A stretch of 64,000 nt of DNA from a virus (IMGVR_UViG_3300020472_000017:1-64000), one strand, 5' to 3'. Shown: positions 29,351 to 60,181, counted from the stretch's first letter. The notes: a model not told the origin generated them from the sequence alone. A program made the numbers and translations.

Positions 29351-30865
29351 TTAGAATTCAATTACTACTTTGAGCTCTTCGTTCTGATCAGCAGATCTTG
29401 TGATCGGAATCCTGTTATCGATATAAAGCATTTCACCTGAGTTTAATTCAATCTCTTCATTGGCATACCCAATGACGAAAGAAAGACCCAACTCATACAC
29501 AGAAACACCAATTGTAATCTGTGATAGTGGAACAGAAGATGTTCCAAATGTCGCATCAGGAGTTGCTGTATAAGCATTTACTGATGATGTAATCTGATTA
29601 GATCCAGAGAATGCGACTATATTTCCAGAAACTACACCATCGGCAGCGTCCTGATAATATTTCAATACTTTTGTTGTAGCATTATAGGAAACTACAAATC
29701 CTTTTGCACCTGTTGTTGTCTGAGTAATAGTCTCACCAGGAGCAAAATTGCCACTAGGAGTACCTGTACCAGACTGAGGGAAGATCATTGCCTTTACAGC
29801 AGATCTAGTATTCTGACTACACACTGTTGTAGTATTGTAATCATAAGGGTTCAATACAAGACCAACCCTTCTATAAGACAGGTCATTAGGGAAATCAACA
29901 AATGCACTAGTAGTTTCTAACTTACTAGTAAACATTAAACGATAAGAACCTAACTCTCTTACAGCATCCGCACCATGACCGTTATTAGGCGGTAATACAA
30001 CATCAAGATTTGCACCTGTACCATTACCAATATTAGTAATGAGTGCAACATCAATAGTACCAAAACTATATCCAGCACCAGCCTGAGTTATAGTAACTGC
30101 AGAAACAGAACCAGAAACAACTGTTACTGTACAAAGTGCTTGTGTTCCACCATTAATGGACCAATCTCCACGAACAGGAACGTTGGTATAAGTACCGTTG
30201 TTATATCCAGCACCAGCTGCTTCAACAACAACTGTATCAACTGAACCTGGGTTTGCAGCGGATTTCACGAGAGTATTCGATAAAACAGGAATAAACTCAG
30301 ATGTAACAAACTTTAGAATGTTGTCAGCATCAATGGTATACATGTACTTCCAACGATAGGAGTACACACCAGGACTATCTGAAGTTTCAATGATAGTTGT
30401 CGATGTACCAGTTGGTTCTACCAAAGAAGGTCTTCCTCTTGGATAGTCTGGATCCTGACCATTGTACAAACATTTGTACACATTAAAGTCAGAGTTCATA
30501 ACATAGAAGTTACTATCATAAAGACGAGAAGCACCATTAGCAGTTGTCTTAGTAGGTGCATAATCAGGCTTGTACATTGAATATGTACGACCAACTCCAC
30601 CAGTTGTCTTAGTGGGGTCAACCCAATCAACCCTAGGTACTACCAATGCAGTATCAGATATGTCAACACGCTTAAAGGCGACAGAATCCTGATAAGTATT
30701 TCTTGCATACTCAAAACTATCGATAGGTTCACCTACTGGTGGAACATCAGATGATCCCCAAGTTTTCGCCCTACCGACGAACATATACACCTTATTCGCG
30801 CTAGTCAGAGTATTTCTGAAGCTCTCGGCAGCGTATATTCTAAATTTGTCAGTGACTAATGCCAT
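29351..30865 (-). CDS. 8: Baseplate wedge protein gp8-like, 504 aa
   Basis: MALVTDKFRIYAAESFRNTLTSANKVYMFVGRAKTW... is the N-terminal pattern of cyanophage gp8 homologues ('F.NSL...N..Y.F.GR...W'). 'YTIDADNILKFVTSEFIPV' and 'FTSKLETTSAFVDFPNDLSYRRVGLVLNPYDY' follow. The order gp6, gp7, gp8 matches T4. The length is well above T4 gp8 (about 334 aa); the extra part includes two 'AAGAGYNNGTYTNVPV..GD' and 'QAGAGYSFGTIDV' beta repeats. It has its own late promoter 21 bp upstream. In T4, gp8 forms a dimer in each baseplate wedge. Confidence 0.88.
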   Translation of the reverse strand: MALVTDKFRIYAAESFRNTLTSANKVYMFVGRAKTWGSSDVPPVGEPIDSFEYARNTYQDSVAFKRVDISDTALVVPRVDWVDPTKTTGGVGRTYSMYKPDYAPTKTTANGASRLYDSNFYVMNSDFNVYKCLYNGQDPDYPRGRPSLVEPTGTSTTIIETSDSPGVYSYRWKYMYTIDADNILKFVTSEFIPVLSNTLVKSAANPGSVDTVVVEAAGAGYNNGTYTNVPVRGDWSINGGTQALCTVTVVSGSVSAVTITQAGAGYSFGTIDVALITNIGNGTGANLDVVLPPNNGHGADAVRELGSYRLMFTSKLETTSAFVDFPNDLSYRRVGLVLNPYDYNTTTVCSQNTRSAVKAMIFPQSGTGTPSGNFAPGETITQTTTGAKGFVVSYNATTKVLKYYQDAADGVVSGNIVAFSGSNQITSSVNAYTATPDATFGTSSVPLSQITIGVSVYELGLSFVIGYANEEIELNSGEMLYIDNRIPITRSADQNEELKVVIEF

Positions 30866-30885: not shown

Positions 30886-30893
30886 TATTTATA
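30886..30893 (-). promoter_or_regulatory. T4-type late promoter box TATAAATA
   Basis: Exact TATAAATA on the minus strand, 20 bp upstream of the gp8 ATG and overlapping the stop region of the 5417-aa gene. It lets gp8 and everything downstream be expressed without transcribing the 16-kb gene. Confidence 0.7.
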
Positions 30894-33800
30894 ATGATCT
30901 CAGACGAACTTCTGGCAGAAGCGAGACGTTTCCGCTAGTTGTGCGCGAGAATGGATATTGAACTGTGAATGTAGTTGTGTTGGTGACTGTTACCTTGTAA
31001 GTACCATCAAAACCATCACCAGTGGTGTGATCTAAGTAAAACTCCATTCCAGTAACTAAATTGTGAGCACTTGCTGTAGTAACCGTACATGTTGTACCAC
31101 TGGAAGTATATGTGCCAGTTAATATTGTATGAGCATGTGCGGTGGTTCCACCATACCCTCTACCGCCTGTTGCGACCGTAAGAGTATTTCCAGATGTGTT
31201 CTTAGCACCATATAGAATTCTTTCTACTGTCCACACACTGTTTGCACTACTATAGAATGGGATAAGAACCTCACCTTCGTCAGGGAATCCATTCTTCTGT
31301 GAAACATCATACCAGACATTCGTTAAGTTTAAGGTAGTACCTACAGCTGTAACTGTTGTAGTCAAGTAAGCATTAGCAAGCATATTAGAATCAGAGATCA
31401 ATCTGTTTCTTTGCTTCCTCTCAATATGTAGTGGATGAGTTGGGAGAACAGTTGGGACAGTAGTGTAATTATTACCACCTTGTAGGTTAATAACACTAAG
31501 TACCTTACCACTTCCAGCTTCAATAGTTGTCTCAGCAAATGCACCTTCTCCACCCCCACCTTGGAAGAGTAGGATAGGTGGATTTTCATAATTAGATCCA
31601 GGACTGGTTATAGCAACCTGAGTAATCTTTCCATTAACTAATGTAGCATTAAACTCAGCAGGAGTTGGTCTCAATCCAGTATATTCATAACTGTCAATAG
31701 AAGTAGAGCTGGAAACTGTCGCAATTAAACGATCTGTACCTTCACTAGCAACTTGAAGTCTATCACCAGGATCAATAGAGTTAAATGTCTTACTGACAAG
31801 AACGTCATCAGAAGATCCAGTAAAGATAAACGCAGTACATTGTGATCCTGCTCTTGGAGCTTCACTGAATTCAATAATAGATCCTCTTAAGTCATATGCA
31901 ACTCCAGGTTCCTGGAATACACCATTTAAGAAGATGACCAAGTTATTTGATGCAATAACAGCAGCATTATCACTTTCCAGTGAAATTGGTTCATTATCTT
32001 GCTTCATAGTAAATGTTAACTTTGCATTATCAAAGTAAGGTGCAAGATCATCAATTAATGACATCTTACCAAAGTAGAACCCATAGAAGTCCATACCAGG
32101 TATAGGTGCCTCATTAAAGGTTATTGTGCTACCAGTATATGTGTAAGAATCTGTACTACCCTTAACCTGTAAAGTGCTATTCAAGAATAGTAAGAAGTTA
32201 TCAGATGCAGGTAGTGTCTGAGTAGAACCATCAACCTGAGCTGTGAATGTTGTATCTGTACCATCAAAGTTTACTGTACCGACTTTAATCTGGAAGTCAG
32301 GAGCACCTGAAGCAGTTCTAGTAACACTATTAAGGTTTCCAGTTGATCCAACATTACAAGTAATAGTTGTACCAGTTACAGCAGTAATCGGTATAGCAGT
32401 ATTGTATACAGGGTCAGTTGTACGTGGATAGGTGTGTGAAGTAGCATTACTATCCAAACTACAAGTAAATGATAGCTTATCAGCACCAATCGTAACGGTA
32501 TCGGAGGTTGTAAAGGAATGAGCACCAATAGTCATTTCCAAGATACCAGTATCAGGACTATAAGTTGCAGCAGTTACATCCTTCTGGACACTACCAGCAG
32601 TTATTGTAATAGCATTAGATGAGGTTCCACCGTTATAAATGTGTGCTCCTGAACCAACTGCAGTAGTAACAATATTAAAGAGCGTTGTGATAGTAGATGC
32701 AACATCTTGACAATCATTAGTATCATAAACTGTATTTCCACTATCATTAGTGATAGTTAGATCCCTAACTTGAGTGCCCTGAGTAAATGTATTAGTTGTA
32801 ACTACAATGTTACGCATTACCTCACGACAAATATCTCTAGCATGATTAAAGACTTCAACAGTCTCACCTTCCTCTCCTTCTACATGAACAGTACCAACAT
32901 AGTAGACAGCAGCATCGTAGGTAGCATCATTTCCACCAAATTCAACGTTATCTGCAACAGCATCTACAATAAGTTTTGTATCACGAATACATTTCGCATA
33001 ACTTGGAACTGTGAATGATGGATTATTAACCTTCATTCTTCCATATGCAGTTGTTGCAATAAATCCAAGGTTGGTTCTAATTAAACTTCCAGCATCAGCA
33101 AGCTTATCGTAAGCATATACACCAGTAGATACAATTGCTCGTTCTACTGCAGTTGCAGTTGCAGATACAAACGCATGTCTGTCACCTGCTTTAATAGCAC
33201 CAGCATTAGAAGTAATGAATTTATGAGTATAGTTACCACCAGCAATAACTGAATTAGCAAGTGCAGAATGGAACTTATGCTTGTATGTGCTAGTAGACTG
33301 AGCAGTATTCAGAACATCAACAAAGATAGAATCGCTTGTTGTAGAAGTAATCTCTAAAGAAGCATCATAAAATGGATCAACTTTCTTCTTAATGGGTAGG
33401 ATAGTAATACTATCAGTAACTGCTCCAACAAATGTATGAACTGTTGTATTAGTAGAAGGTGCCTTAGTTAATACCTGAATATCAAATGTATTGTAAGTAA
33501 CGTTAGAAACAGGAATAGCATTACCGCTAATAGGATCCTTATGAACAATACCATTAGCAGCTGCAGCAACTACCTTATGAGTTGTTACATTAGTAGAAGG
33601 AACTGTATCAAGAACCTTAACCTCAAAACTATTCAATCTCTTATTGAAGATCTTCAACCACTTACCACTTACAGGGTCAGTAGAGCGAGGATATGAGTGT
33701 TGTCCAGCACCTTGAGTACACTCAAGTGTTATAGCACTATCATTGAACTTAATCCAATCACCATTACTCATACCGTGATTAGTAGTAGTCTCAATCTTAA

Positions 33801-36800
33801 GAATACCTGTCTCAGGATAATAATGTGAACCACCCCTCATTAGAGCAGCACTTGCTGTACCACCAGTCCATGTATGTGCATAAGCACCACCAGAAATAAT
33901 AGCATTGGTTCCAACAGATCCAGGCTTCCATCTATGTAATGATTGATCTGGAGATACACCAACATTTAATGTTATAGTTGTATCAGATACAGCAGTAATA
34001 GTTACTGCAGTGTCATATGCAGGGTCTGAAGAACGTGGATATGTGTGGTCAGTTCCATAATTGTCTTTAGCACACTGGAATGTTAGTGAATTTGCAGTGA
34101 ATTTAACAGTTTCGCCCACAAAGAAGTCATGAGCACCAATTTCTAACTCAAGTGAACCACCTGCAGGATCATAAGTACCATCTGTTGCAGTGTAATTAAC
34201 AATAGGTGACTTACCAACAAATATAGTAGCTGTAGTTCCAGTTACTGCTGTAACTGCCATATCTTTACCGAAGTATGGATCAGTTGCTCTAGGATAAGAC
34301 TTAGTAGCAGTATTTCCATCCATTGCACATGTAAACTTCAATGAATTAGGTGCAACTCTAGCTACAGAGGATGCACGACTAATACCAGTGGCAGTACATG
34401 ATACAAATGTATGTGTATCATTAGTTGTTGCAGGGATCTTATCAAGAACCTGAACATCAAATGTATCAGTTGTTGTATTGAATATTTGTATCCACTTACC
34501 ACTTACAGGATCAGTTGCTCTAGGATAAGTATTTGTTCCAGAACTTACTCCAACATTAACACTAAGAGTATCTGCAGTATTTGCAGTAATTGCTAAAGCT
34601 GTGTTATATGCAGGGTCTGTTGTACGTGGATAATAATGAGCAGTTTGATGACTATCCTTAGTACAAGTAAATCCAATAGAATTAGCAGCAATCGTAATAG
34701 TATTGGAAGTTGTTAAGTTGTGAGCAGCAGATGTCGTTAAGTTTAACGTTCCATTTACAGGATTGTAAGAAGCAGAAGTTATATTATGCTGAGTGGAAGT
34801 ATTATCTGTAAATGCATTAGTAACAGTACCACTAACATATAGATGAGAACCAGCTCCACGATCACAAGTGAAGTTCAATGCATTGTCATCAATCTTAATC
34901 AAATCTCCATCATCCCATCCATGTCCAGCAACAGTAAGTGTCATAACACCTGTTGATGGAATATATGTACCAGCGGTTGCTTGATGAGTTGAAGGAGCAG
35001 TAAATGCATGAGATCCACAAGTCAATTCTGCAAGACCTGTAGCAGCATCAAATGTACCAGTGGTTACATCATAAGAATTAGTAGGAATAGCAGCAGTAAA
35101 TGTATCCTGAGAAGCTCTTGGATACTTATGAGTACCTAAACCTTGAGTACAACTGAATGAGAATGCCTCATCAGCAACTCTAATATGATCACCATTTACT
35201 AATCCATGACCTACTTGTACACATCCAGTAGTTGCATTCTGGAAGGTATGTGTAACAGCATGACTAATAGCACCTTGTCCACCGTTAGCATTAACAGTAA
35301 TTGTATTAGAAGTTACTGCTGTAATTGCAATATCAACGTTGTATAAGTAATCTGCACCATTACCAGTATTAGCACCTGTGGCACGAGGATATGTCTTAGT
35401 CTGTGTCTGACTATTGTACTCACAACTAAAGGATAATGAGTTTGCGTCTAATCTAATAGTATCCAGTGTGGTTAATGTATGAGTACCAATTTGTAGTACT
35501 AAGTCACCACTATTCCCATCATAAGTCGCAGATGAGACATTAAATCTTTCATTCTGTATAGTCATTACACCCGTAGTTGGGTCGTAATCTGCAAAATGAG
35601 GTGATAACTTACTGTTACTTACAAATGAATGAGGATCAGTGTTAGTGGAAGGTATATCATCAAGAACAGTGACATCAAAAGCATTAGTTTGGACATTAGA
35701 GATCTTTAACCATCTATCGTATGCATAATCAGTGGATCTTGGGTATTGCTTCTTAGCTGTATTACCATCAAGGTTACAAGTCATTGTTAGTGACTTCTCC
35801 TTAATCTTAATCCAGTCATTATTTACAAATCCATGAGCAGGAGATGTAATTGTCATTACACCATTGTTAGGATTGTAATCTACACCAGTAACTTCAAATC
35901 CTTCTGTAGATGTTCTAGGATAGCTTGTGACAGTTTGATGATTGTTCTTATCACAACTGAATGAAACAGCACCATCAGAAAGTTTAATACTTTGACCAGC
36001 AGATAGGTTATGAGCACCTATAACTAACTCCATAACACCCGTAGTTGGTTCGTATAAGGCGTTAGAAGGTGTATAAGTCTTAAGAGGTGTCTTACCAACG
36101 TTAACTGTAATACTATCGCTTGTAATAGCAGATACAGCAAGTGCAGATTTATAAGCAGGATCAGATTTTCTAGGATAAGTATGCTGAGTAGCCCTCTTAT
36201 CCATCTCACAAGTAAAGATTAATCCATTTTCATCAATGGTTATTGTATCTTGTGCTACTGTGAGACAATCGGCATCAATAGATGAGAATGAGTGAGTGTA
36301 GTTACCACCACTTTGAACTGCGTTAGATGCAGTACCACCATTCCAAGTATGTGGGGTGATGTCAGTAGTCGCTCCCTGTCCACCATTTACATTGACCGTG
36401 ATGGTGTCAGTAGTTGTTGCTGTAATAGCAATTGCAGTATCATAGGCATAGTCTGCGCCTCCTGCGGCGGCTGATCCAGAAGCCCTAGGATATGTCTTAT
36501 CAGTCGAATAATTGTCACCTTGATAGTTACACCTGAATGTTAATGAATTAGCAGCGATCTTAATACTTTCGCCAGTAACTAATCCATGATCTTTAATAGT
36601 TAGTGCTAAATCACCTGTAGTTGGATTATATGTTGCATTTGTTACATCATGGTTAACTACTAGAGATGCACCAATTTGAACATCAAATGTATTGGCCTGT
36701 ACGTTGAATACCTCAACAAACTTACCACTGAAAGGATCAGTTGTTCTTGGATAAGACTTAACAGAAGTATTACCATCCATTAAGCAAGTAAGCTTAACAG

Positions 36801-39800
36801 CACCATCAGCAATCTTAACTCTATCTCCACTCTTAAGAGTATGACCATTTAAAGTCAAAGTCATTACTCCAGTAGCAGGAACATATGCTGCACTAGTTGG
36901 AGAAAGGGTAGTTGGAGCTAATAATGGATGAGCTCCGATTGTTAATGATAAATCACCAGTTGCTGCGTTATATGTTGAAGCAGTAGGTGTATATTCTTGT
37001 CTTATACCTGTACCAACGTTAACCTTGAAGGAATCTGTAGTTACAGAGTAAATTGTTAGGAAAGCTCCAGCAGCAGGGTCTGAAGAGCGAGGGTAAGTAT
37101 GATTAGTAGCATTGTTGTCCTTAGAACAAGTAAATGTTAGTGAATTGTCAGTAAACTTGATTCTATCACCATTATCCATTCCATGAGCAGCAGCTGTTAT
37201 CATCATCTCACCTGTTGCTGCGGTATAAACAACCGAAGTAGGTTGGAACTGATAAGTACTTAATCCTTGGAAGGTATGAGTAGTAGTATTAGTTGCAGCA
37301 GTACCATTAAGTGCATTAACTGTAATAGTAGTACCAGTTACAGCATCAACAGGAATATCAGATAGATTTCCATGTGGATCTGTTGATCTTGGGTAAGTAT
37401 GATTACCAGCAGCTTCAGTACAACTGAATATTAGGGCATTGTTAGCAATTCTAATGTATGACCTAGCATGTTTAATTGCATCAGTTACAGCAGAAGAGAA
37501 TGTATGAACTGTAGTATTAGTAGATGGAACAGTATCTAATACTTGTACACTGAATGTATTAGCAGATACATCAAATATTGGGATCCACTTACTGCTAACA
37601 GGGTCAGTAGCACGAGGATATGCATGAGTACCACCACCTTGAGTACAAGTGAATACGATTGCACTATCGTCAAACTTAACCTTCTCACCATTCTGGAATC
37701 CATGATTAGCAATGGTAACAACCATTATGCCAGTCCAAGGATCGTAAGTAGCAGCAGTAGCAGTATGATCTGTAGGTGCCAACAGTGTATGTGACCCAAT
37801 AGTCATCTCTAGTACACCTGTACTAGGTGCATATGCTGCTGCAGAAGGTGCGTAGTTGTTAGTTAGGGATGAACCTACCTCAGATAAACCCAAAACATCA
37901 TCCTGGGTATATCCATTACCAGCCTGACTTAGTACAACATTAGTTACCTTCTGTCCACTAACTGTAATATCAGCAGTAGCACCAGAACCAGAACCTAATC
38001 TATTCTTAAGGGGAACTCCTGTATATGTACCATCCGTATATCCATATCCACCAGTTAATCCATTAGCTACATCAAAGGTCTTAATTTCATCTCCAATCTG
38101 ATCTAACTGGAAACTACTTGTATATGATGCACGATCATAGTACATCACAAGGATAGTGGTTCCAGAAAGTAAAGGACTATTAAAGGTTAGAATATCATTG
38201 GCAAAGGTATAATTTGCAGGATTTTGTACAATACCATTGGCAATAACAAATAATTGATCCTTATCTGGAGTTTTGCCAAGCTTTGTGGTAAGTCCTGTAC
38301 CATCACTACGCATTCTAAATTGGGTATTAGTGCCATCAACAGAGACTCTAAGTGTATGTCCAACTCCAGAACCAATAGCACTTATACCAATTGCAGGTCC
38401 ACCAGGGATTTCTCTAACTTCAATAGTGTTTGCATCAACTACTTTAACGTAATATCCACCAGCATTAGTTAATCCACCAATAGCAGTTCCAGTTCTTACT
38501 TGAGGATAGTTTCCTACATCTGGATTAGGTAATGTTGAAGGATTATCAATACCATCAGCAATAATCTTTGCAAGTGTTGTAATGGCACTTGTGACAGTTG
38601 CACAACCGTCTGAAGGTGCAGTAATACTTAAATCTTTTATAGGAGCTAACGTAGTATATGTACCAATAGGTAGGTTGTTGACTACAGCAAGGTTACATAA
38701 GTCTCTTGCCTTATTAAATGCAAATATAGTTTCAGTCTCTTCCCCAACAACATGCTTAAGGTAATTTGATGGGTTAGTTCTAGTTACGGAAGCAAGGCTA
38801 TTAGAAGAAAGAGCAGTAGTAATAATGTCAAAGAGAGTGTCCATTGCAGAAGAGACACTAGCACATGTAGCAGCAATGTAAGTAGGTGAAGTATTAGTGA
38901 CTTGAGTAAGACCGTGATTTCCTTGAACAGTGATTGCCTCATTAATGATTACCTTAGCAGCCAGTTCCTTACACTTATTGAAACACCATATCGCTTGTGT
39001 CTCTTCACCATCAACAGGAGCAGGATTAGAGTATACGCCATCAACATAGAAGTTTCCAGCATCCCATGTCTCACTATTGCCACCATAACGCAAGTTATAT
39101 GCAATAGCTTCCATTGCATCAACTAAGTCATCAATACAATTATCATTATGACCTGGAATACCTGGATAACCACTTGGAACACCTACAGTAGGATCTAATA
39201 ACATCAAATACACTGCTTCTTCAGCAATGAACTTCATGTTGTCCTTAATTAGGTTAGCAGCATCAATATGAGCATTACTTAGTGAAACTACTCCACCAAC
39301 ATATGCATTAGTAGCATCTAATGTGAACCAGTTACCACCATACCTTAAGTCATTTGCCCAAGCAGCTAATACTAGTCTTATATCTCTAGCACATGTAGTT
39401 GAGTTGTATGTAAGACTTGGATATGAAGCATTTAGTGATCCAATTGTCTCTTCAATGATATAATCAATGTTTGAGATGATTAAATCTCTAGCATCTTGGA
39501 ATCTATCTCCACCAGCGTTATAAACCATACGCTGATTGTCAACTAATCCATGATTAGTTAATGTAATTTGATTATTAGCAGTACTTACTATACTTGAGGA
39601 TGATCCATCAAATGTAATAGACTTATCACTAACATCATCTATCTTATAAGAAATACAAGATAATATCTTCTGAATATCTAATAACTGTCTACCATAAACC
39701 TGAACCTCAGTTGGAACTGCAGCTGTATAATCTGCTTTACCTAAAGCAAAGTTCTGAATCTGAGAAAGTTTACCAGTTGCCTTTGCAGATGGCTTAGGAA

Positions 39801-42800
39801 TTACGTAAGTAGTACCATTAAAGGTAGTTCCTAGACTATTAGTTCCAGAAACCCACCAATCGTAGCTATTACCAGCACTTAAGTTAAGTGAAGACTTTGC
39901 TCTATAATCCTTAAGACTTGCTTGTGATAGTACTTGTGTACCAACTACTTTGAAACCTGCAGGGTGAGCAGCATACTTAAGTGGGTTCTTCCAATCATTA
40001 ATATTAATGGATGAAGAGATATCATATGAGAATTCCTGATACCTATCACTGTCATATAGTCTCTGTTCGTTAAGATCTAAGAAACCAGTGGTTCTTTCCC
40101 ACTTAGTTGCAGAAATACTAATTGGTGAAACTTCAAATACAGCATCTGCTCTAGTGAATGTATGAATCTGACCAAATGCAGCAGTCTCTTCACCAAATAC
40201 AGGTTCTCCAATCTTAAACTCACCTTCTACTATCTCTACACTAACAACACGTCCAGAAGCATCCCAATTCTTAACATAACCATATGCAGTATATGAAGTA
40301 CTAGATGCACCCTGATAAATCCTTTCTCCAACAGAGAAAGTAGCAGGCTTCATGTATGCAGTGATGTTATCGCCAAGATCAGTAGTTTCTAATGTAAAGT
40401 ATGTCTGTCCTGTTAGTTGATCACCCACTGGATTACCAGTAAATGCTATAAAGGTTCCAAGATTAGCATTTGCAAGACTAGATGCAAGTTGAATTTGATT
40501 ATCTGCTAATGCAGTATTCTTTTCTCTAGATATCGCATAATAGGTTGTGTCAACAACTAATGGTGTTGGGAATTGTCCTGTAATCTCTTTAAGAGTTACT
40601 TCTGTACCATTTGGGATTTTTGTATTATATGGGAAGTTTAATGTACTACTTGACTTTAATCCAACCCAAGTATGAGTTACCTTAGCTTTTACAGTAGGTG
40701 CAGATAAGAAACCTCTACCAGCCTTAATTACCTCTATTGACTGTATAACCTCATTTTCCAATAATGCCTTCAATTCATAGAGTGATCCACTTCCACCTTC
40801 AAGAACAACCTCAGGTGTAGAAACAAAGTTAGCTCCACCATTAATAACATCAAAATAGTCAATAACTTGAGTTCTTGTTAATTGTAAGTTATATGTTGTG
40901 TTTAACTCTGGTTTTAGGGTTCTATCGTGAGAATAGTTAAATGTGATATTATCTCCACCGATTTTCAGTATTTTGCCCAAATCGGAAGATTTAAGTAGTA
41001 TAGAAGCTCCAGAACCTGTTTTTTGCGTAATATTGACTACAGGAGCACTTTGGAACTGTATTCCAGCATTTTCGATGTTAATCTGGTTTACACCTTCATT
41101 TAAGATGGTTGAATTGAATTTTGAGTTAATTCCATTACCACCACTAACAGTAATGTTTGGTGATGACAAATAACCAGATCCAGTGTTTGTAACTGTAATT
41201 GTATCAACAGAAGCGTCTAATAACGTCGAAATAGTTGCTGGATCAGCATGTGCCAATGTAGTAACTGTAATAGTGAAATCTTCATTTCCAGCACCACCAG
41301 GAAGCTTTGTACCATCAAAAGTGATTACATCACCTAATGAGTATCCAGTACCGCCAGTTGTGCAAGTAACCGTTGCAATTGCACCATTACCATCTGTAAC
41401 AACTGTAAATTCAGCATTTACTCCATTAACGGGAGCAACACTTGTTTGAGTTACTCCAGTAGTTGTTGTATCTGGAGTAAAGGCATTTGCAACAGATTCA
41501 TTGATAGATCCGACTGTATCGACTGATCCATAGTAAGGATCATCAAATATGATGGCTGGAGCAGCTCTATAGTTAGATCCAGGGTTAGTAACAGTAACAC
41601 CAGTAAGTTGACCACCACCAGAAACAGCAGTAGCAACAATAGCTTGAACTCCACTTATTGCAGTAATTGAAGCTTGTGAATCAGCACTGTATACATTGTT
41701 AGTAGCAGCAGTGCCAGTACTGAACATGATGTAACCTTTATTACCAGCACCAACTCTTTCGTTCTTGAGAGGTTTAACTCTTAATACTGAAGTAATTACA
41801 TTCCAAGAGATGACTTGACCTCTAGCAGTTTGATTTCCTTGAGTTTCTTGTGAAATAATGACTTCATCCTTAATAAAGGCTCCAAGTACACCTGTAAGTG
41901 TTAAATCAACAAAATCAGGTAATGTTACAACTCCAGTTGGTAAAGATGACTGATTATATCCAGATCCATCATTCGTAATGGAAACATTGGATAAAGTACC
42001 AGAAATAGTAGCAACTGCGGTTGCACCAGATCCAGATCTAGTGGATCCAGTCAATTTTGGAAGAGATGAGTAATTTCTTCCAGTATCACCGATAGAGATG
42101 GTTGCAATACCACCCTCAGGGTAAATTGAGTTTGTAGTGTAGCTGATACCCGTACTATACCCAATTTCAGGTTCTAGAACAGTTATGTACTTATATGTCT
42201 TATCTGTCTTCTCACTAACGGTCTGTGTCCCTACAACAGGGTCATTCATAGCTGTAAAGTAACTTCCAGTTACAGTTCCTTCAATATCGAAATAATAGAA
42301 GATACCAGGAAGATCTTTAACGTAAATTGTAATAGAATCCTGATCTCCTGTAATTGGATCTTTTACTTCATCAGAAATATTCTTATAAGTGAAAATATCG
42401 GTATTTGCAGGATCTAACGTGAATGCAAGTGTTTTTCCAATATTACTTGTATCTGAAGTGTCGAACTTGTACTTATGACCCAAAATAAGTTGTAATTTGG
42501 GTTCTTTCACATAAACTTCAGCAGAAGCTGTATTAGCGGCTGCAATAGACGCAAAATTGCGTTTTACGGTAAATCTACGATTACTTTCAGTTCTAACAAC
42601 TGAATAATCTGTTTTATTGTATCCAGCAGGAGAAACTCCCGAAATATTAACAATATCGCCAATTCCAACCTGATGTGCAAGGCTTGAATGGATTTGAGCT
42701 TCAATTTCAACTTCAGTTAATGTAATAGTGAATCCTGATCCTGCAGGACTTAATGCATTACCTAGATTGACATTAGCAGCAGTAATAGTGTCACCGACAT

Positions 42801-45800
42801 CATAAGAGGTTCCTACACTTGTAATAGTCACTGAAGTAACTGCATTACCAGAAACAACAATAGTTGCCTTACCACCAGTACCAGAGCCGTTACTTGTTAG
42901 GGGAACTTGCTCATAAGTGCCATTTGCGTAATTACTTCCTCCAGTAATACTTGACCAACCACCTTGGTATAAATTACCGTCTGTACGCTTTCTAATATAG
43001 GTCCAATTCATTGAACCATCAGTTACAGTACCAGATTCATGAGTTGGAGCTGAAGAACTAGAAGTTCCACTTGCAGCTGCCTTATAAACCCTATCTTGAG
43101 TGAAAATAAGGTCTCCTTGAGTATATGCAGTAGTATTAGCGTATTCTGTCAACAACTTCATTGTTGAAGCATTGAAATACTTAAAGTGATACTTTGAACC
43201 AATGATCTTTGTATCAATTACTCTAGTATAAAGATTATCAGTCAAACTAACAGTAACATTCTCTCCAACTTGCAAATAGTGATTTTCTAGAGTGGTTATT
43301 GTTGTTGTACAGATGTCATCAGTGGCACCTACAGCATTTGCAAGAGTACTGACTGTTCCACCAGCAACAGCTGATACAATAGCACTAATTCCTTCTCCAC
43401 CAGTGTCTGTATTATCAAATGTTAGTCTATCATTGACTTTATACTCTTTACCGCCACCTTCAACTAGATATTGGTCAACTCCAGAGGAAGAATACTTATT
43501 AGTCGCGGAAACAACCAATGAATCCGCAGTACCACCTCTAATAACTGGATAATAACTGAAATACCCAATTCCATCTTCAAGGTAGCTTAATACTTCACCA
43601 GTTTCCATCACAATCAATGTTGTGGTGTCTTCAAGTGCTAAGAAGAAGTCAATCTTGTTGTCAAGCTTCTTTCTCTTTGCTACAATGTTATCAACACCGA
43701 TAAATGGTGCTTTATAGCGAATTGCGTCTTCTGTAAAGTTTTTCTGCAGACCATTTCCATTCCAGTTAACAGCATCCGCTTCTGAGTAGAAATTTGGTCC
43801 TATAAAGTACGGGAATTTGGGTTCTCCAGCAGAACCCTTAATTGTAGCGAAATATGCATAAACTCCATTTGGATATTCTGGAGTAACGCAGAAACGACCG
43901 TTATATTGGTCTAAATCACCATATCCTTCTCTATATTCATAATCTTCAATATAAGTGCCCATAGGGTCTGTCAGACCGTTTAGAAGAGCATCTCTAGATG
44001 ACTTAACAAGGTAACTAGAGACCATCAACTTAAATGAATTATAAGGAGTGGTATTTTCAGGATCCTCAAATCCATATGGTCCATAAATTGGATGTCCATC
44101 ATAAGCCCAACCAATAATAGGAGAGTGTGAGGTTGGATTTAATTCTTGTAGGGTGTCATCAATATTATCTCTTAAGAGGAACCTAAGTTGCTTAGGGTTA
44201 TACAGATATCCATATTCTCCGTCATATATCAAGTAGTTTTCTCCTTGGAAAACTCCACCACCTGCAGTATCAGTAGTTTTACGTGCTACGAAAGTATTTG
44301 AACCCAATTCTGCGCCAGTTGCTGCTTCGTTAAAGCTCAATTCCGTTAACTTAGTTTGGAATGAAGCTCCTGTACCTGGATATACAATACTAATCGATGT
44401 ATTACCTGCGCTATATCCCGCGCCCTTGTTTGTTACAATAATACCAGTAACAATATTGGTAGCAAGGTCTACTTGAGCAAATGCAGTAGCACCAACTCCA
44501 TCTCCAGTAATAACAACGTCTGGAGCACCATAATACCCACTACCACCGAATGTTACGATAACACTTTCGATCTTTCCGTTTAAAATGGAAGGATACGCAA
44601 CAGCACCACTACCAGAGATTAACTTAATAGTGGGTTCGTAAGTATATTGAGTTCCAGCATTAGTGATATTGATAGTATTGATTGGTCCTCGACAAATAGA
44701 GGTAGCAGTAGCACCTGTGCCATTTCCTCCACTTATAGAAACACTAGGAACACTAGTATAACCAGTACCTCCATTAGTTACAGTAATTCCAGTAACAATA
44801 CCTGATGTGATCTGAGCAGTAGCAGTTGCCTGATTGTCATTACCAGCTCCACCACCAGTAATCGATATAATTGGTTCTGTTGTATACCCACTACCACCAT
44901 TAGTAACGTTAATAGCAATTACTGAACCTAAAACGGAAACTGTTGCCGCGGCTGGTGTACCTTCATACTCCCAAGTGATAGCACCTATAGTTGCAGTCCC
45001 AGTAGTATGTGTTGGGTAAGCAGTATTTGATGAAAGACCACTATCAATAGCTCTATACCTATTACCATTATATTTTACTCTAACACCTGAAGAATAAACT
45101 GTATTGAGCTTATAATCTTCTTCAAACTCTACTGTAGGTGGGTTTGTGATATCATATCCATCTCCACCCGCATTTTTATCAATAGCTTTCAATCCACCAA
45201 ACTTCTTCTTGGTTTCTCCCTTATATGAGAATATTGGAACACCATTTGAACCAATACCAATTTGACCAACTGGAGTAGCTGTTTTTGTACTTTTAGTAGA
45301 TGGTGTAAGAGGTATTCTCTTAAGATATCTCTGGTTACCAGGAGTTAGGTCACCAACAGCAAATGGACCTATTTTATGCGATGGTACACCTGTACTAGCG
45401 ACAATAGCATCTTTAGATGATTTGTAGGTATTCTGAACGTCTGCAGTATAATCCTTGATTGAATTGTTAATAGAAGCGTAATCACTGACACCATATGCAA
45501 ATTCTCTAGAAATAAAGAATTCAAATCCACTAATACCTTGAGCTGGTGTAGATGAGAATAAAAATTCAAATTCCGTATCAGAAACAATACCAACAACATC
45601 ATGAAGATTATTGTAGATGTCTTCTGGAGCATTTAGAACTCTAATGACATCATCTCGCTTCAAACGATGCTTTTCTTTAGTCTTAACGGTACAACGAACA
45701 CTTCCATTAGGATTAACAGTTCCTAGGGTCGCAGATTCGCCTCTGAGTGCCCTTCTGACGTTATATTGGAAAGTTTCCCATATTGGGTCAATACTATCAA

Positions 45801-47142
45801 ATCCTGGTGCTATAGGGGTCGTAACCTTACTGTTGGGAAGGTAATACTGACCGCCATCAGTCAATACAACACCTCTAGTGCCTCCATAGACCTTTAATTG
45901 GATTTCCGAGTTGTCTACATTGGAATATCCGTAAATCTTGAATGCAGCAAATACTTCTTGACCTGCATCATGAGCTACATTAGTTGTACCCTCTCTTGCA
46001 CGAGTACATCCTAAAAACTGGCTGACAGTTTTATCAGAATATGTTATAATTTCATCTTCTATCCTAAAACGACCATTTATTTCTGGCCAACCAAGAGTAG
46101 AATCAACAGTAACAATTTGATCGGATATATTAGCTCCAAGATCAGCTGAAAGGACTGATTTGTATGGAGTTACAAATGCTCCTAGTGAATTATTAGTATC
46201 TACGTCAATTTCAAAGATTGAACCGCTAGAAGTGAAAACTTCAACAACGCCTTTTACGTAAATTCGCGCAGCTGCAACATTTGGATCATTTGTATCATTT
46301 TCTTGATACAGAACTTGACCAACTAACGCACCTGGGTCTCCAGTAACCGCAACAGCACGAATAACTTCCCTAGAAGTGTAATATGCGTCTGATGGCTTGA
46401 AAATACGATCTCTAGGATAGTTAATTTCCGAATCTACGCCAAAAAGCGTCCTTAAGACGAATTGGAAAGACCTTGTAGACCCTTTAGAGGCATAAAAGTC
46501 CTTAATTCTCTTAATTACGGTTGATTCAGTAACTCCATCCGCAAAATTCTTTGGAAATGTCGATAAAAACTGTTCTTTGAACTTTCCGAGTATATAAAGC
46601 GGAAAAATATTGTTTAAATTGGTAACTTTTGCTCCAAGAGCATGAGATGCAGCTACAGTTTCTTCAAATTTGTAATCTGCCTCTTCACCAATTGTTTTTA
46701 TGGCGTTAAAACCTCTCGCACAGTCCTGAAAAAGCGTAGATCCTTTCTGTTGGTAGTAAATGATCTCATCACCAACTAAAAGTAGCCCTTCAGATGGGAA
46801 ATCCCGCGTACTTTCAACGTCAACAGTTGTAGAAGATGTACTTAACGCGGAAATAAGTTTTGTTTCAGTAACTAATCCACCATAATTATCAATATTGTAG
46901 TAATCACCCCAGTTTTGGATAATATCGAAGCAATATCCTTTTAATTCTTGTGACTTATAGTATGACTTAACAAACGAAATGAAGGTAGGATAATTTTCCT
47001 GTATAAACGAAGCAAACTGTCCCGCAATATTGTGGGAAATCTGCGATTTAGATTCAGGACTGACCTCTGACGGTACTGGTGTAGTTGTAACCGTAGTGGT
47101 CGGTGTAGTCCACGAACTAACCTTCCAGGAAGAATTTGTCAT
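30889..47142 (-). CDS. 7: Giant gp7-like baseplate wedge protein, 5417 aa, highly modular
   Basis: The N-terminal 480 or so residues (IAGQFASFIQENYPTFISFVKSYY...FASKGSTRSFQFVLRTLFG-type text) match cyanophage gp7 proteins, and the gene sits between gp6 and gp8. In order follow: 'GGSGYTTEPIISITGGGAG' beta repeats (about 735-915); a YHYH domain (about 990-1110, GWAYDGHPIYGPYGFEDP); a cupredoxin-like fold lacking metal ligands (about 1545-1635, LGHKYKFDTSD); two 'NLRYGGN' modules (about 2540-2720); and about 16 'HTYPRSTDP' modules (about 3090-4910) with a third NLRYGGN-type module near 4740. T4 gp7 is about 1032 residues, so this is five times larger. I infer that the wedge core carries surface-exposed adhesive arms. 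No internal stop interrupts it. Confidence 0.88.
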   Translation of the reverse strand: MTNSSWKVSSWTTPTTTVTTTPVPSEVSPESKSQISHNIAGQFASFIQENYPTFISFVKSYYKSQELKGYCFDIIQNWGDYYNIDNYGGLVTETKLISALSTSSTTVDVESTRDFPSEGLLLVGDEIIYYQQKGSTLFQDCARGFNAIKTIGEEADYKFEETVAASHALGAKVTNLNNIFPLYILGKFKEQFLSTFPKNFADGVTESTVIKRIKDFYASKGSTRSFQFVLRTLFGVDSEINYPRDRIFKPSDAYYTSREVIRAVAVTGDPGALVGQVLYQENDTNDPNVAAARIYVKGVVEVFTSSGSIFEIDVDTNNSLGAFVTPYKSVLSADLGANISDQIVTVDSTLGWPEINGRFRIEDEIITYSDKTVSQFLGCTRAREGTTNVAHDAGQEVFAAFKIYGYSNVDNSEIQLKVYGGTRGVVLTDGGQYYLPNSKVTTPIAPGFDSIDPIWETFQYNVRRALRGESATLGTVNPNGSVRCTVKTKEKHRLKRDDVIRVLNAPEDIYNNLHDVVGIVSDTEFEFLFSSTPAQGISGFEFFISREFAYGVSDYASINNSIKDYTADVQNTYKSSKDAIVASTGVPSHKIGPFAVGDLTPGNQRYLKRIPLTPSTKSTKTATPVGQIGIGSNGVPIFSYKGETKKKFGGLKAIDKNAGGDGYDITNPPTVEFEEDYKLNTVYSSGVRVKYNGNRYRAIDSGLSSNTAYPTHTTGTATIGAITWEYEGTPAAATVSVLGSVIAINVTNGGSGYTTEPIISITGGGAGNDNQATATAQITSGIVTGITVTNGGTGYTSVPSVSISGGNGTGATATSICRGPINTINITNAGTQYTYEPTIKLISGSGAVAYPSILNGKIESVIVTFGGSGYYGAPDVVITGDGVGATAFAQVDLATNIVTGIIVTNKGAGYSAGNTSISIVYPGTGASFQTKLTELSFNEAATGAELGSNTFVARKTTDTAGGGVFQGENYLIYDGEYGYLYNPKQLRFLLRDNIDDTLQELNPTSHSPIIGWAYDGHPIYGPYGFEDPENTTPYNSFKLMVSSYLVKSSRDALLNGLTDPMGTYIEDYEYREGYGDLDQYNGRFCVTPEYPNGVYAYFATIKGSAGEPKFPYFIGPNFYSEADAVNWNGNGLQKNFTEDAIRYKAPFIGVDNIVAKRKKLDNKIDFFLALEDTTTLIVMETGEVLSYLEDGIGYFSYYPVIRGGTADSLVVSATNKYSSSGVDQYLVEGGGKEYKVNDRLTFDNTDTGGEGISAIVSAVAGGTVSTLANAVGATDDICTTTITTLENHYLQVGENVTVSLTDNLYTRVIDTKIIGSKYHFKYFNASTMKLLTEYANTTAYTQGDLIFTQDRVYKAAASGTSSSSAPTHESGTVTDGSMNWTYIRKRTDGNLYQGGWSSITGGSNYANGTYEQVPLTSNGSGTGGKATIVVSGNAVTSVTITSVGTSYDVGDTITAANVNLGNALSPAGSGFTITLTEVEIEAQIHSSLAHQVGIGDIVNISGVSPAGYNKTDYSVVRTESNRRFTVKRNFASIAAANTASAEVYVKEPKLQLILGHKYKFDTSDTSNIGKTLAFTLDPANTDIFTYKNISDEVKDPITGDQDSITIYVKDLPGIFYYFDIEGTVTGSYFTAMNDPVVGTQTVSEKTDKTYKYITVLEPEIGYSTGISYTTNSIYPEGGIATISIGDTGRNYSSLPKLTGSTRSGSGATAVATISGTLSNVSITNDGSGYNQSSLPTGVVTLPDFVDLTLTGVLGAFIKDEVIISQETQGNQTARGQVISWNVITSVLRVKPLKNERVGAGNKGYIMFSTGTAATNNVYSADSQASITAISGVQAIVATAVSGGGQLTGVTVTNPGSNYRAAPAIIFDDPYYGSVDTVGSINESVANAFTPDTTTTGVTQTSVAPVNGVNAEFTVVTDGNGAIATVTCTTGGTGYSLGDVITFDGTKLPGGAGNEDFTITVTTLAHADPATISTLLDASVDTITVTNTGSGYLSSPNITVSGGNGINSKFNSTILNEGVNQINIENAGIQFQSAPVVNITQKTGSGASILLKSSDLGKILKIGGDNITFNYSHDRTLKPELNTTYNLQLTRTQVIDYFDVINGGANFVSTPEVVLEGGSGSLYELKALLENEVIQSIEVIKAGRGFLSAPTVKAKVTHTWVGLKSSSTLNFPYNTKIPNGTEVTLKEITGQFPTPLVVDTTYYAISREKNTALADNQIQLASSLANANLGTFIAFTGNPVGDQLTGQTYFTLETTDLGDNITAYMKPATFSVGERIYQGASSTSYTAYGYVKNWDASGRVVSVEIVEGEFKIGEPVFGEETAAFGQIHTFTRADAVFEVSPISISATKWERTTGFLDLNEQRLYDSDRYQEFSYDISSSININDWKNPLKYAAHPAGFKVVGTQVLSQASLKDYRAKSSLNLSAGNSYDWWVSGTNSLGTTFNGTTYVIPKPSAKATGKLSQIQNFALGKADYTAAVPTEVQVYGRQLLDIQKILSCISYKIDDVSDKSITFDGSSSSIVSTANNQITLTNHGLVDNQRMVYNAGGDRFQDARDLIISNIDYIIEETIGSLNASYPSLTYNSTTCARDIRLVLAAWANDLRYGGNWFTLDATNAYVGGVVSLSNAHIDAANLIKDNMKFIAEEAVYLMLLDPTVGVPSGYPGIPGHNDNCIDDLVDAMEAIAYNLRYGGNSETWDAGNFYVDGVYSNPAPVDGEETQAIWCFNKCKELAAKVIINEAITVQGNHGLTQVTNTSPTYIAATCASVSSAMDTLFDIITTALSSNSLASVTRTNPSNYLKHVVGEETETIFAFNKARDLCNLAVVNNLPIGTYTTLAPIKDLSITAPSDGCATVTSAITTLAKIIADGIDNPSTLPNPDVGNYPQVRTGTAIGGLTNAGGYYVKVVDANTIEVREIPGGPAIGISAIGSGVGHTLRVSVDGTNTQFRMRSDGTGLTTKLGKTPDKDQLFVIANGIVQNPANYTFANDILTFNSPLLSGTTILVMYYDRASYTSSFQLDQIGDEIKTFDVANGLTGGYGYTDGTYTGVPLKNRLGSGSGATADITVSGQKVTNVVLSQAGNGYTQDDVLGLSEVGSSLTNNYAPSAAAYAPSTGVLEMTIGSHTLLAPTDHTATAATYDPWTGIMVVTIANHGFQNGEKVKFDDSAIVFTCTQGGGTHAYPRATDPVSSKWIPIFDVSANTFSVQVLDTVPSTNTTVHTFSSAVTDAIKHARSYIRIANNALIFSCTEAAGNHTYPRSTDPHGNLSDIPVDAVTGTTITVNALNGTAATNTTTHTFQGLSTYQFQPTSVVYTAATGEMMITAAAHGMDNGDRIKFTDNSLTFTCSKDNNATNHTYPRSSDPAAGAFLTIYSVTTDSFKVNVGTGIRQEYTPTASTYNAATGDLSLTIGAHPLLAPTTLSPTSAAYVPATGVMTLTLNGHTLKSGDRVKIADGAVKLTCLMDGNTSVKSYPRTTDPFSGKFVEVFNVQANTFDVQIGASLVVNHDVTNATYNPTTGDLALTIKDHGLVTGESIKIAANSLTFRCNYQGDNYSTDKTYPRASGSAAAGGADYAYDTAIAITATTTDTITVNVNGGQGATTDITPHTWNGGTASNAVQSGGNYTHSFSSIDADCLTVAQDTITIDENGLIFTCEMDKRATQHTYPRKSDPAYKSALAVSAITSDSITVNVGKTPLKTYTPSNALYEPTTGVMELVIGAHNLSAGQSIKLSDGAVSFSCDKNNHQTVTSYPRTSTEGFEVTGVDYNPNNGVMTITSPAHGFVNNDWIKIKEKSLTMTCNLDGNTAKKQYPRSTDYAYDRWLKISNVQTNAFDVTVLDDIPSTNTDPHSFVSNSKLSPHFADYDPTTGVMTIQNERFNVSSATYDGNSGDLVLQIGTHTLTTLDTIRLDANSLSFSCEYNSQTQTKTYPRATGANTGNGADYLYNVDIAITAVTSNTITVNANGGQGAISHAVTHTFQNATTGCVQVGHGLVNGDHIRVADEAFSFSCTQGLGTHKYPRASQDTFTAAIPTNSYDVTTGTFDAATGLAELTCGSHAFTAPSTHQATAGTYIPSTGVMTLTVAGHGWDDGDLIKIDDNALNFTCDRGAGSHLYVSGTVTNAFTDNTSTQHNITSASYNPVNGTLNLTTSAAHNLTTSNTITIAANSIGFTCTKDSHQTAHYYPRTTDPAYNTALAITANTADTLSVNVGVSSGTNTYPRATDPVSGKWIQIFNTTTDTFDVQVLDKIPATTNDTHTFVSCTATGISRASSVARVAPNSLKFTCAMDGNTATKSYPRATDPYFGKDMAVTAVTGTTATIFVGKSPIVNYTATDGTYDPAGGSLELEIGAHDFFVGETVKFTANSLTFQCAKDNYGTDHTYPRSSDPAYDTAVTITAVSDTTITLNVGVSPDQSLHRWKPGSVGTNAIISGGAYAHTWTGGTASAALMRGGSHYYPETGILKIETTTNHGMSNGDWIKFNDSAITLECTQGAGQHSYPRSTDPVSGKWLKIFNKRLNSFEVKVLDTVPSTNVTTHKVVAAAANGIVHKDPISGNAIPVSNVTYNTFDIQVLTKAPSTNTTVHTFVGAVTDSITILPIKKKVDPFYDASLEITSTTSDSIFVDVLNTAQSTSTYKHKFHSALANSVIAGGNYTHKFITSNAGAIKAGDRHAFVSATATAVERAIVSTGVYAYDKLADAGSLIRTNLGFIATTAYGRMKVNNPSFTVPSYAKCIRDTKLIVDAVADNVEFGGNDATYDAAVYYVGTVHVEGEEGETVEVFNHARDICREVMRNIVVTTNTFTQGTQVRDLTITNDSGNTVYDTNDCQDVASTITTLFNIVTTAVGSGAHIYNGGTSSNAITITAGSVQKDVTAATYSPDTGILEMTIGAHSFTTSDTVTIGADKLSFTCSLDSNATSHTYPRTTDPVYNTAIPITAVTGTTITCNVGSTGNLNSVTRTASGAPDFQIKVGTVNFDGTDTTFTAQVDGSTQTLPASDNFLLFLNSTLQVKGSTDSYTYTGSTITFNEAPIPGMDFYGFYFGKMSLIDDLAPYFDNAKLTFTMKQDNEPISLESDNAAVIASNNLVIFLNGVFQEPGVAYDLRGSIIEFSEAPRAGSQCTAFIFTGSSDDVLVSKTFNSIDPGDRLQVASEGTDRLIATVSSSTSIDSYEYTGLRPTPAEFNATLVNGKITQVAITSPGSNYENPPILLFQGGGGEGAFAETTIEAGSGKVLSVINLQGGNNYTTVPTVLPTHPLHIERKQRNRLISDSNMLANAYLTTTVTAVGTTLNLTNVWYDVSQKNGFPDEGEVLIPFYSSANSVWTVERILYGAKNTSGNTLTVATGGRGYGGTTAHAHTILTGTYTSSGTTCTVTTASAHNLVTGMEFYLDHTTGDGFDGTYKVTVTNTTTFTVQYPFSRTTSGNVSLLPEVRLRSL
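32400..37860 (-). repeat. Tandem 'HTYPRSTDP' modules in the gp7-like gene
   Basis: About 16 diverged copies counted by eye. Plus-strand cores lie near 32410, 33685, 34020, 34285, 34510, 34615, 35100, 35385, 35735, 35905, 36160, 36480, 36740, 37080, 37380 and 37605. Each copy encodes a conserved Cys, then His-x-Tyr-Pro-Arg and Asp-Pro, and often 'VLDTVPSTNTTVHTF'. The same module occurs in the fibre gene at the left edge. Confidence 0.75.
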
Positions 47143-47149: not shown

Positions 47150-49003
47150 CTAACTATAGCTTGACTCTGGTACAACTCCCGTACCAGAAAGGTTTGAACC
47201 GCTACTGATAGTGTCTTCTACAACACTTACAGTCGTATTATCTATACCCAATGTGAGATAGGTTTCTCGCAATGATACTAAATCATTAGATTCAGGAATT
47301 CCAGAGATCTGTAATAGATTACCTGCAACCCTTGTTGATGTAATAATCAAATCATTAATGACAATTTCACCCATACTATAGTCAACAGTGCCCCATAGAC
47401 CATCAACATATTCTTTTTCACCAGTTCCTTTGATGTAATAGAGACGCAATAGACCTGCACCATCATCATTTATGTAATAAGTATTAAATGCATCACCACT
47501 AATCTTAAATCCACTGGTAGAAACAGTAGGATCTGTAGTAGTTCCTTGCTTAATCCTATTACCATAACAGATTTTATAGTTCACACGAGCATTTAAATCG
47601 ACTGTTACGTTCTTTCTCATCTTGAGACGAGTGATATTAGAGGTAATTGATGTTTCTGAGTTGTCAATTACACCCTGAAGCCTGGAGTATTTGAATTTTC
47701 CACCAAATTTATTAAACTCTCCACTGACATTCAGTTGAGTTAGTGATATAATCACTAAATTCTTAACTTCTGAAGGTTCACGACGAGTAACATTTGGGTT
47801 AAAGTAGACAAAAGTGTCCAAATCAATGTATAATATAGATGGGTCAATGATTGAAGGTTGAATTGCCGCTACAGAGTAGTCTCTAAGCTTCTTAAGAATG
47901 ACATTTTTCTCCGAAAGTGATAATCTATCAGCATTTTTTGGTTTAATTGCCAAAAATACCTTACCATATTCAGGTGGAGACGCTTCTTCACCACCATAAC
48001 AAGCAATTGAAGATACATTTGGGTAAATTTGTGGAATAATTGCTTCATAATCACGGGTTGAGACTGCTCTACCGAAGGCAGAATAGAATTTTGGTGCTGC
48101 AAACTTGATAGATTCAGTAGTTTCCGCTAATGAACCTCCATCTGGATCACTTGTAGTAGTAACTGTAATGCCAGAAGTGATAGAATTGCCTGTATTATCT
48201 CTAAAGTTACCAATATTTTCAAATACTTTCAATCCATTAGCTCCAGTTCCACTAGAAGTGGTATACTGAACCTCAACAACATCACCATTTGTAAGATCCT
48301 TACCCATTATTCCATCACCAAAGAGGATTTCTGGGATCTCTTGCTCAGATTCTTCTAAAAAGAAGACCTTTGAAGTGGAATCTATCTTAGTAATATCAGT
48401 TGCTTGTAAATAACGCTCTGTAACAGTACCTGAAGTTACCTCAACACGCATACTAGATGTATCTGCAGTTCCATTTGTAAGAATGAAACGCTGCCTTTGG
48501 TTAGTATCCCGCACAAAAGTGTCTGTAAGGAACACTCCTTCATACAAAACAACACCAGTAAAGGTTGCAATACCAGAAGTACTATCTACACTCTGTGTAG
48601 TATCGACTGGTAAAGAGAAAACAAAGTTATTATTATCTAATCCTGTGAAATTTAATACTAATCCTCTACCAATAGTAACTGTTTTGGGATATGGAACTAC
48701 AGTTTGTACACTAATATTGACAGTTGTTTGTGCAGAACGAGCTGACTTGGGTGTATAACCAAGCATTCTTGCTAATTTTACAACATTTTCACGTAAAACA
48801 GCAGTTTCTAAGAAGCCTTCATTGACTGTAAGGTTGGCATTTACACTAGTATAGTAAGTATTATATGCTAACGTATCAAGAAGCACCGTCAAAGAAGATC
48901 CCTCGAAGTCATAATCGGAGAATTGTTCCTGAGCTCGAAGATAATCTTTTATTTGTGCCTTAATTTGGTTGAACTCTAAGGCGTTGACCTGATTGAATGC
49001 CAT
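47150..49003 (-). CDS. 6: Baseplate wedge protein gp6, 617 aa
   Basis: MAFNQVNALEFNQIKAQIKDYLRAQEQFSDYDFEGSSLTVLLDTLAYNTYYTSVNANLTVNE is the typical N-terminus of T4-like gp6 (baseplate J-like family). 'SAFGRAVSTRDYEAIIPQIYPNVSSIACYGGEE' in the middle is a second family signature. The length fits T4 gp6 (about 660 aa). In T4, gp6 dimers link neighbouring wedges into the inner baseplate ring. The start overlaps the gp25 stop (TAATG), indicating coupled translation, and the gp7-like gene starts 7 bp after its stop. Confidence 0.95.
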   Translation of the reverse strand: MAFNQVNALEFNQIKAQIKDYLRAQEQFSDYDFEGSSLTVLLDTLAYNTYYTSVNANLTVNEGFLETAVLRENVVKLARMLGYTPKSARSAQTTVNISVQTVVPYPKTVTIGRGLVLNFTGLDNNNFVFSLPVDTTQSVDSTSGIATFTGVVLYEGVFLTDTFVRDTNQRQRFILTNGTADTSSMRVEVTSGTVTERYLQATDITKIDSTSKVFFLEESEQEIPEILFGDGIMGKDLTNGDVVEVQYTTSSGTGANGLKVFENIGNFRDNTGNSITSGITVTTTSDPDGGSLAETTESIKFAAPKFYSAFGRAVSTRDYEAIIPQIYPNVSSIACYGGEEASPPEYGKVFLAIKPKNADRLSLSEKNVILKKLRDYSVAAIQPSIIDPSILYIDLDTFVYFNPNVTRREPSEVKNLVIISLTQLNVSGEFNKFGGKFKYSRLQGVIDNSETSITSNITRLKMRKNVTVDLNARVNYKICYGNRIKQGTTTDPTVSTSGFKISGDAFNTYYINDDGAGLLRLYYIKGTGEKEYVDGLWGTVDYSMGEIVINDLIITSTRVAGNLLQISGIPESNDLVSLRETYLTLGIDNTTVSVVEDTISSGSNLSGTGVVPESSYS

Positions 49004-50091: not shown

Positions 50092-50405
50092 TAGTATCCT
50101 CCAAATGGATCATCTTGGGGTTCATACTCAGAAGGAGCAGTTTCTTCCCAATCGAATGTTTTAACGGGTGGTTCTTGTATCTTTTCAGATCCACCACCTA
50201 GATTCTCTGAGCCACCCACTGCAAATGGATTATACTTTGCAGTTGCTATTTCATACATCTTCTGATGTATAGTGACCTGTGGCGGGTCAATATTGACAAC
50301 ATTATCCAATGCCTTGTCTCTTGCAATAGGCATAGTATCTAAAGGATTTGGTTTATCATCAAACCAATCATCTTTCGGTGTCATCTTTGGTGCTGGATAG
50401 GACAT
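50091..50405 (-). CDS. Proline/acid-rich virion-region protein, 104 aa
   Basis: MSYPAPKMTPKDDWFDDKPNPLDTMPIARDK, 'VTIHQKMYEIATAKYNPFAVGG', a Gly-rich linker and an acidic 'DWEETAPSEYEPQDDPFGGY' end. It is low-complexity and probably largely disordered. It starts at the stop of the 159-aa gene and stops at the PAAR start, so it belongs to the same translation unit. No family recognised; a spike- or baseplate-assembly role is inferred from position. Confidence 0.7.
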   Translation of the reverse strand: MSYPAPKMTPKDDWFDDKPNPLDTMPIARDKALDNVVNIDPPQVTIHQKMYEIATAKYNPFAVGGSENLGGGSEKIQEPPVKTFDWEETAPSEYEPQDDPFGGY

Positions 50406-59264: not shown

Positions 59265-59271
59265 GTATTCT

Positions 59272-59725: not shown

Positions 59726-59751
59726 AGTGTTTCAACTATTGTTCGCCGTCA

Positions 59752-60177: not shown

Positions 60178-60181
60178 CACC

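Follow-up and report, generated by a model that had tools for sequence, protein, structure and literature searches.

A predicted beta-barrel module repeated in variable number in a putative gp7-family baseplate protein of cyanophages

One uninterrupted ORF on the minus strand (30889-47142, 5,417 aa) of a metagenomic virus contig (IMGVR_UViG_3300020472_000017:1-64000, a stretch of 64,000 nt hereafter called the window) holds an array of related modules, and the module, widespread and unnamed, is a subtype of a phage barrel already known, located in a known baseplate protein and showing array-length polymorphism. The first-pass annotation had placed a repeat at 32400-37860 in about 16 tandem copies, and this was confirmed: the array lies on the minus strand within that single ORF and contains 17 hairpins, 16 of them carrying a Tyr-Pro-Arg (YPR) motif. 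The proteins (through PHROGs and GenBank annotation) and the fold class are already known; the repeat as a defined module, its inserted hairpin and the law relating protein length to copy number seem to be new.

The giant ORF, its gene neighbourhood and its repeat array

The main features of this region (aa, residues of the giant protein) are:

29351-30865: gp8 (PF09215)
30889-47142, minus strand: giant protein of 5,417 aa, putative gp7-family baseplate wedge protein (ORF, synteny, 70% identity to P-HM2 gp7 over aa 1-1620)
32317-37860, minus strand: C/YPR beta-barrel modules in an array spanning aa 3095-4942 (profile HMM with 10 full and 11-12 partial matches; 17 hairpins)
43837-44220, minus strand: YHYH domain, aa 975-1102 (Pfam PF14240, E=9.1e-28, above cut-off)
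46297-46641, minus strand: region resembling T4 gp7, aa 168-282, with the motif DFYASKGSTRSFQFVLRTLFG (profile search of PDB sequences, HHalign)
47150-49003: gp6 (phrog_219 and Pfam Gp6 domains)

The giant protein is assigned by sequence to the gp7-family baseplate wedge proteins of P-HM1/P-HM2-like Prochlorococcus phages, because synteny is combined with a profile match to T4-type gp7. Upstream of the giant ORF there are gp25 (identified by PF04965) and gp6, and downstream gp8 and a DUF4815 protein; the order gp25-gp6-gp7-gp8 is shared with P-HM1, P-HM2, MED4-213 and P-SSM2, and gp6 is 79% identical to its counterparts in the first three of these. A search of all PDB sequences with a profile of the gp7 N-terminus matched T4-type gp7 (9f4a, E=8.8e-5; 5hx2, E=1.1e-4) over a short region centred near DFYASKG, and the profile was needed, given that a PDB search with the N-terminus as a single sequence returned no match. 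HHalign aligned aa 168-282 with residues 678-790 of T4 gp7 at a probability of 78%, and an AlphaFold model of the gp7 N-terminus, of low pTM (0.32), had as its best PDB match a 1,004-residue T4 baseplate chain (5iv5_BJ, E=1.2e-3, probability 0.75). T4 gp7, a baseplate wedge protein of 1,032 aa, thus resembles the window protein in lying between gp6 and gp8 and in the profile match around DFYASKG..S (E of about 1e-4), but it is five times shorter, and the match is limited to about 30-110 residues.

Much closer are the gp7 proteins of P-HM1, P-HM2 and MED4-213 (Eurybiavirus), which share the gene order, have an array in the equivalent place and are 69-72% identical to the window gp7 in the N-terminal part and 69-71% at the C-terminus. 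They differ in having 6 YPR copies instead of the 16 of the window, and their annotation goes no further than 'baseplate wedge initiator' or 'hypothetical protein', leaving the repeat undescribed. From these relatives we infer the host and genus of the window virus, and from gp7 the place of the array in the virion. In cyanophage S-CREM2, virions contain a baseplate wedge protein in the gp7 position, represented by 91 unique peptides (PMC10665884).

Elsewhere in gp7, the YHYH domain belongs to a type predicted to act as a metal-dependent (Zn-dependent) hydrolase (PMC7824862), and Gly-rich beta repeats (VTNGGSGYTTEPIISITGGGAG), each about 50 aa long, are encoded at 44430-45045, near a weak Pfam CBM_5_12 match that lies below cut-off. 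Among other genes of the window, 50405-50884 encodes a small protein (PHROG 23903, labelled 'toxin') whose likely P-HM1 counterpart, annotated 'putative RTX toxin', lies just upstream of gp25 and next to a PAAR protein; the protein of 2,448 aa encoded at 12673-20019 is of the baseplate wedge type (phrog_32294), and its Laminin_G_3 domain, a concanavalin-like lectin, scores above cut-off; and 58273-63459 carries two DNA methyltransferases (MethyltransfD12, N6_N4_Mtase) and SAICAR synthetase (purC).

A motif scan of the ORF located 16 YPR sites in aa 3175-4905, besides a further YPR at aa 242, outside the array. The 17 hairpins (aa 3166-4905) comprise these 16 and one YVSG variant, and follow in the window the pattern [FLM]-x-C-x(5-10)-[HK]-x-YPR-x-x-DP. 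No module match was obtained at the identical cut-off in 200 shuffled versions of the gp7 protein. Half-modules are present within the array, and a helical stretch of about 200 aa separates the final copy from the others. A tandem array at the DNA level was considered and rejected, TRF finding none in the window; at the protein level, identity among copies is mostly 35-60%, and the copies are old. These data bear on the concern, natural for a metagenomic contig, that the repeat number might be produced by misassembled reads. We regard such an artefact as very improbable: the copies are too diverged for collapse or expansion during assembly, an independent contig with the same array (98.5% identity over the compared part) has an equal copy number, and the array is also found in cultured phages.

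Predicted fold and conserved residues of the module

The fold was analysed with a reference module, and the nearest relative found for it lies in the same protein:

36967-37269, minus strand: reference module used for structure prediction, aa 3292-3392 (AlphaFold2)
30928-31167, minus strand: aa 5326-5405, a plain beta-barrel that lacks the Cys/YPR hairpin (aligned with the module profile by HHalign)

AlphaFold2, given an alignment of 110 modules, predicted an all-beta, seven-stranded structure (mean pLDDT 83.9, core blocks about 88-96). The top PDB matches of this model in Foldseek were the endosialidases of phages phi92 and K1F, followed by UBA6, whose FCCH domain is a barrel of the module's type. 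The endosialidase matches had a probability of 0.93-1.00 and TMq of 0.46-0.50, and the link appears to be remote, since the TM value is about 0.5 and the Foldseek E about 0.03. In sequence, PF12195, the endosialidase beta-barrel, matched 17 of the 110 modules at E<=1 (best 2.8e-4, weak, the window module not being among them), and PF16190 (E1_FCCH) weakly matched six of the 110 (best 1.2e-4). E1_FCCH scores of 19.6 and 12.9 bits stayed below the gathering score of 29.5. HHalign and HMMER comparisons placed the match to K1F endosialidase at K1F aa 439-465, at the motif HGL-x-x-GD.

A predicted barrel topology and this motif are what the module has in common with the endosialidase barrels of K1F and phi92, but there a single barrel forms part of a catalytic domain, whereas the gp7 module occurs as a repeat and bears a Cys/YPR hairpin in addition, and sequence similarity is weak. 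E1_FCCH likewise has a barrel of like type with an HGF/HGL-GD motif, although it stays below the Pfam cut-off and its partial match ends ahead of the hairpin. The nearest relative of the module that we found is the plain barrel at the gp7 C-terminus, which HHalign aligned with the module profile at a probability of 96% (E=2.2e-9 for a single comparison) with one gap exactly at the hairpin. Among the 521 modules, columns 36-42 covary with 47-53, in support of the hairpin, and 17/27 covary with 76 and 21 with 75, in support of barrel closure. Together, the structure and sequence matches, the alignment and the covariation argue that the module is a known barrel, by prediction of the endosialidase beta-barrel/E1 FCCH type, into which a new Cys/YPR hairpin has been inserted, and not a new fold.

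Against PDB sequences, the module profile gave only marginal matches, to iota-carbonic anhydrase (E=0.0011, although no individual stretch passed alone) and BURRH, which were put down to chance, and Pfam detected no sialidase or propeller domain in gp7. In BFVD, all 26 strong organism-named matches (E<=0.001) were cyanophage proteins (gp7, tail fibre, structural).

Residue conservation was assessed in 521 non-redundant, near-full metagenomic modules, about 2,000 module matches having been obtained in 131 sequences (130 metagenomic loci and the window). The Cys is present in 100% of the set, Tyr-Pro-Arg in 98-100%, the next Asp in 98%, the Gly of the T-G turn in 98% and the His of the H-G-L motif in 97%. 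The His of H-x-YPR, by comparison, is found in 74% and replaced by Lys in 21%, and in the window this position is His in 10 of 17 copies, Lys in five, Thr in one and Asn in one. Of the earlier description, in which Cys and His were invariant and Asp-Pro was kept in each copy, the Cys thus stands (16/17 in the window) and the His does not; nor does Asp-Pro, which occurs in 11/17 window copies, its Pro being present in 82% of the 521 modules.

This pattern bears on the proposal that the Cys, with His, Tyr and Arg, binds metal, or that disulphides stiffen a fibre. The near-complete conservation of Cys, YPR and Asp would fit such a role, but invariant Cys and His ligands, the mark of a Cys/His metal domain, were not found: the H-x-YPR His is missing in 7/17 window copies besides its frequent exchange for Lys, and the HGL His is common to barrels without Cys, both the plain C-terminal barrel of gp7 and that of K1F. 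With about one Cys per module (mean 1.15 in the window copies), an intra-module disulphide is excluded in most copies. The proposal is thus unsupported and we consider it improbable; most simply, the Cys/YPR/Asp hairpin is a fold-stabilising element and not a metal site.

No curated family in Pfam or NCBIfam covers the module. Five PHROGs (1276, 5342, 18802, 701 and 2885) contain it, with many stretches each, but these are whole-protein clusters (unknown, tail fibre, virion structural, baseplate wedge), none of which defines a domain for the repeat. Hence the earlier impression of an undescribed repeat holds for the named domain, but not for the proteins, known as gp7 or tail fibre and grouped in PHROGs, nor for the fold class. 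The module is present in 359 annotated cyanophage records among those searched and in about 130 metagenomic loci. The alignment of divergent modules was too diverse for pattern search, and single modules served as queries; one such query, in a pattern search for close relatives, found no relative of the module in bacterial genomes, where distant ones may exist. In the open-access literature we found no description of the C/YPR repeat or of a giant cyanophage gp7.

Copy number and exchange of modules

The comparison covered 16 gp7 proteins: that of the window, those of twelve contig regions and those of three cultured phages. Their flanks are collinear, with 69-96% identity in the N-terminal part (compared over up to 2,600 aa, or 1,634-1,688 aa where the phage is a cultured one) and 61-100% in the C-terminal 457 aa. 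The array starts at about aa 3,060-3,130 in 15 of the 16, and at aa 2629 in contig L224, and contains from 3 to 16 YPR copies. Protein length follows 3,787 + 102 x copies (r=0.993, n=16), a correlation that persists without close relatives (r=0.992). Receptor variation, raised in the first-pass annotation, fits this comparison if varied repeat number between collinear flanks is taken as its source. In related metagenomic contigs (L108, L092, L094, L082 and L097), open frames longer than 6,200 aa, holding up to 30 modules, span most or all of a 20-kb locus.

Near-identical pairs have equal counts, both the window and contig L229 (16/16 YPR) and P-HM1 and P-HM2 (6/6); fast copy-number switching was therefore rejected, and copy-number change is slow. 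A profile search found no module in gp7 of S-PM2, S-SSM7, S-CAM9, P-TIM68 and S-SM2, and because these five cyanophage proteins do without it, the module is dispensable for basic gp7 function.

The module also occurs in a second gene of the window, to which parts of the gp7 array are related:

3-12101, minus strand: fibre-like second giant gene encoding at least 4,033 aa and running off the left contig end (module matches)
32317-32643, minus strand: last module of the gp7 array, aa 4834-4942 (non-orthologous by identity comparison)
32653-33225, minus strand: helix-rich segment with Cys, separating the last module from the main array (aa 4656-4829 match fibre aa 2032-2195 at 37% identity)

C/YPR modules are encoded in the second giant gene at 5835-7967 and 8733-8996. 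The last gp7 module is 74% identical to a module of this gene and 70% identical to a module of P-SSM2 gp7, other regions of which show about 25-35%, and only 52% identical to its positional counterpart in Eurybiavirus gp7. These identities indicate that this module has been exchanged between genes and between phages. The C-terminal part of the second ORF is tail-fibre-like. The helix-rich Cys repeat (ARDLI..N..FI.EE....YP.....C.RD....L....DLRYGGN......A..Y) is shared by gp7 (38443-39480 and 32653-33225) and the fibre-like gene (about 5500-8560), and had no Pfam match in the scanned part of gp7.

The array might be a passive spacer, its barrels merely lengthening a baseplate arm without binding anything, and its copy number setting reach or stiffness. 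Copy number does explain gp7 length almost fully, half-modules are tolerated, and five cyanophage gp7 proteins lack the module altogether. Nevertheless, its occurrence in a second, fibre-like gene, an exchange between genes and phages that a spacer would not need, and a glycan-binding barrel as nearest structural relative all speak against this reading, which is the main rival of surface binding and, in our judgement, possible but the less likely of the two.

A possible surface-binding array on the baseplate

Among ocean viruses, T4-like cyanophages are abundant, and to our knowledge the way in which they recognise Prochlorococcus is poorly understood. Our best guess, which we hold about as readily as its opposite, is that the modules make up a variable array on the baseplate that binds surfaces multivalently, as suggested by an analogy with K1F, by mutations seen during host adaptation, and by the copy-number variation and module exchange described above. 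K1F endosialidase has three polysialic-acid sites, and its barrel, one of these, is also a hotspot of host discrimination, in which S460R, S468D and G504V are substitutions that tell hosts apart (PMC12632334); S460 falls inside the stretch matched by the module (aa 439-465). In an evolution experiment, the particle proteins mutated in a cyanophage adapting to new hosts were mostly those of the baseplate and tail fibre (PMC6224464). A like fold need not mean a like ligand, and the ligand proposed by analogy is possibly a glycan, most likely polysaccharide or LPS. E1 FCCH, for its part, is not known to bind glycans.

The module, then, is a domain predicted to be of the endosialidase-barrel/E1 FCCH type, with an inserted beta-hairpin that has conserved Cys, Tyr-Pro-Arg and Asp, and it is built as a variable array into gp7, and also into a fibre-like protein, of Prochlorococcus cyanophages. 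Under the surface-binding reading, the array would extend outwards from the baseplate like beads on a string, each barrel using variable loops to bind material of the host surface, and copy number together with module identity would set avidity and host range. More tentatively, and rather doubtful in its full form, gp7 may carry a string of 3-16 glycan-binding barrels with the new hairpin, swapped both with the tail fibre and between phages, so that the baseplate too sets host range.

If this is true, host range would be adjustable via the baseplate wedge protein and not through the fibre alone. The array accounts for nearly all of the length variation of this giant baseplate protein, and the module is a defined, expressible unit for host-surface binding assays, whose profile would help to annotate very large marine phage proteins that are now called hypothetical.
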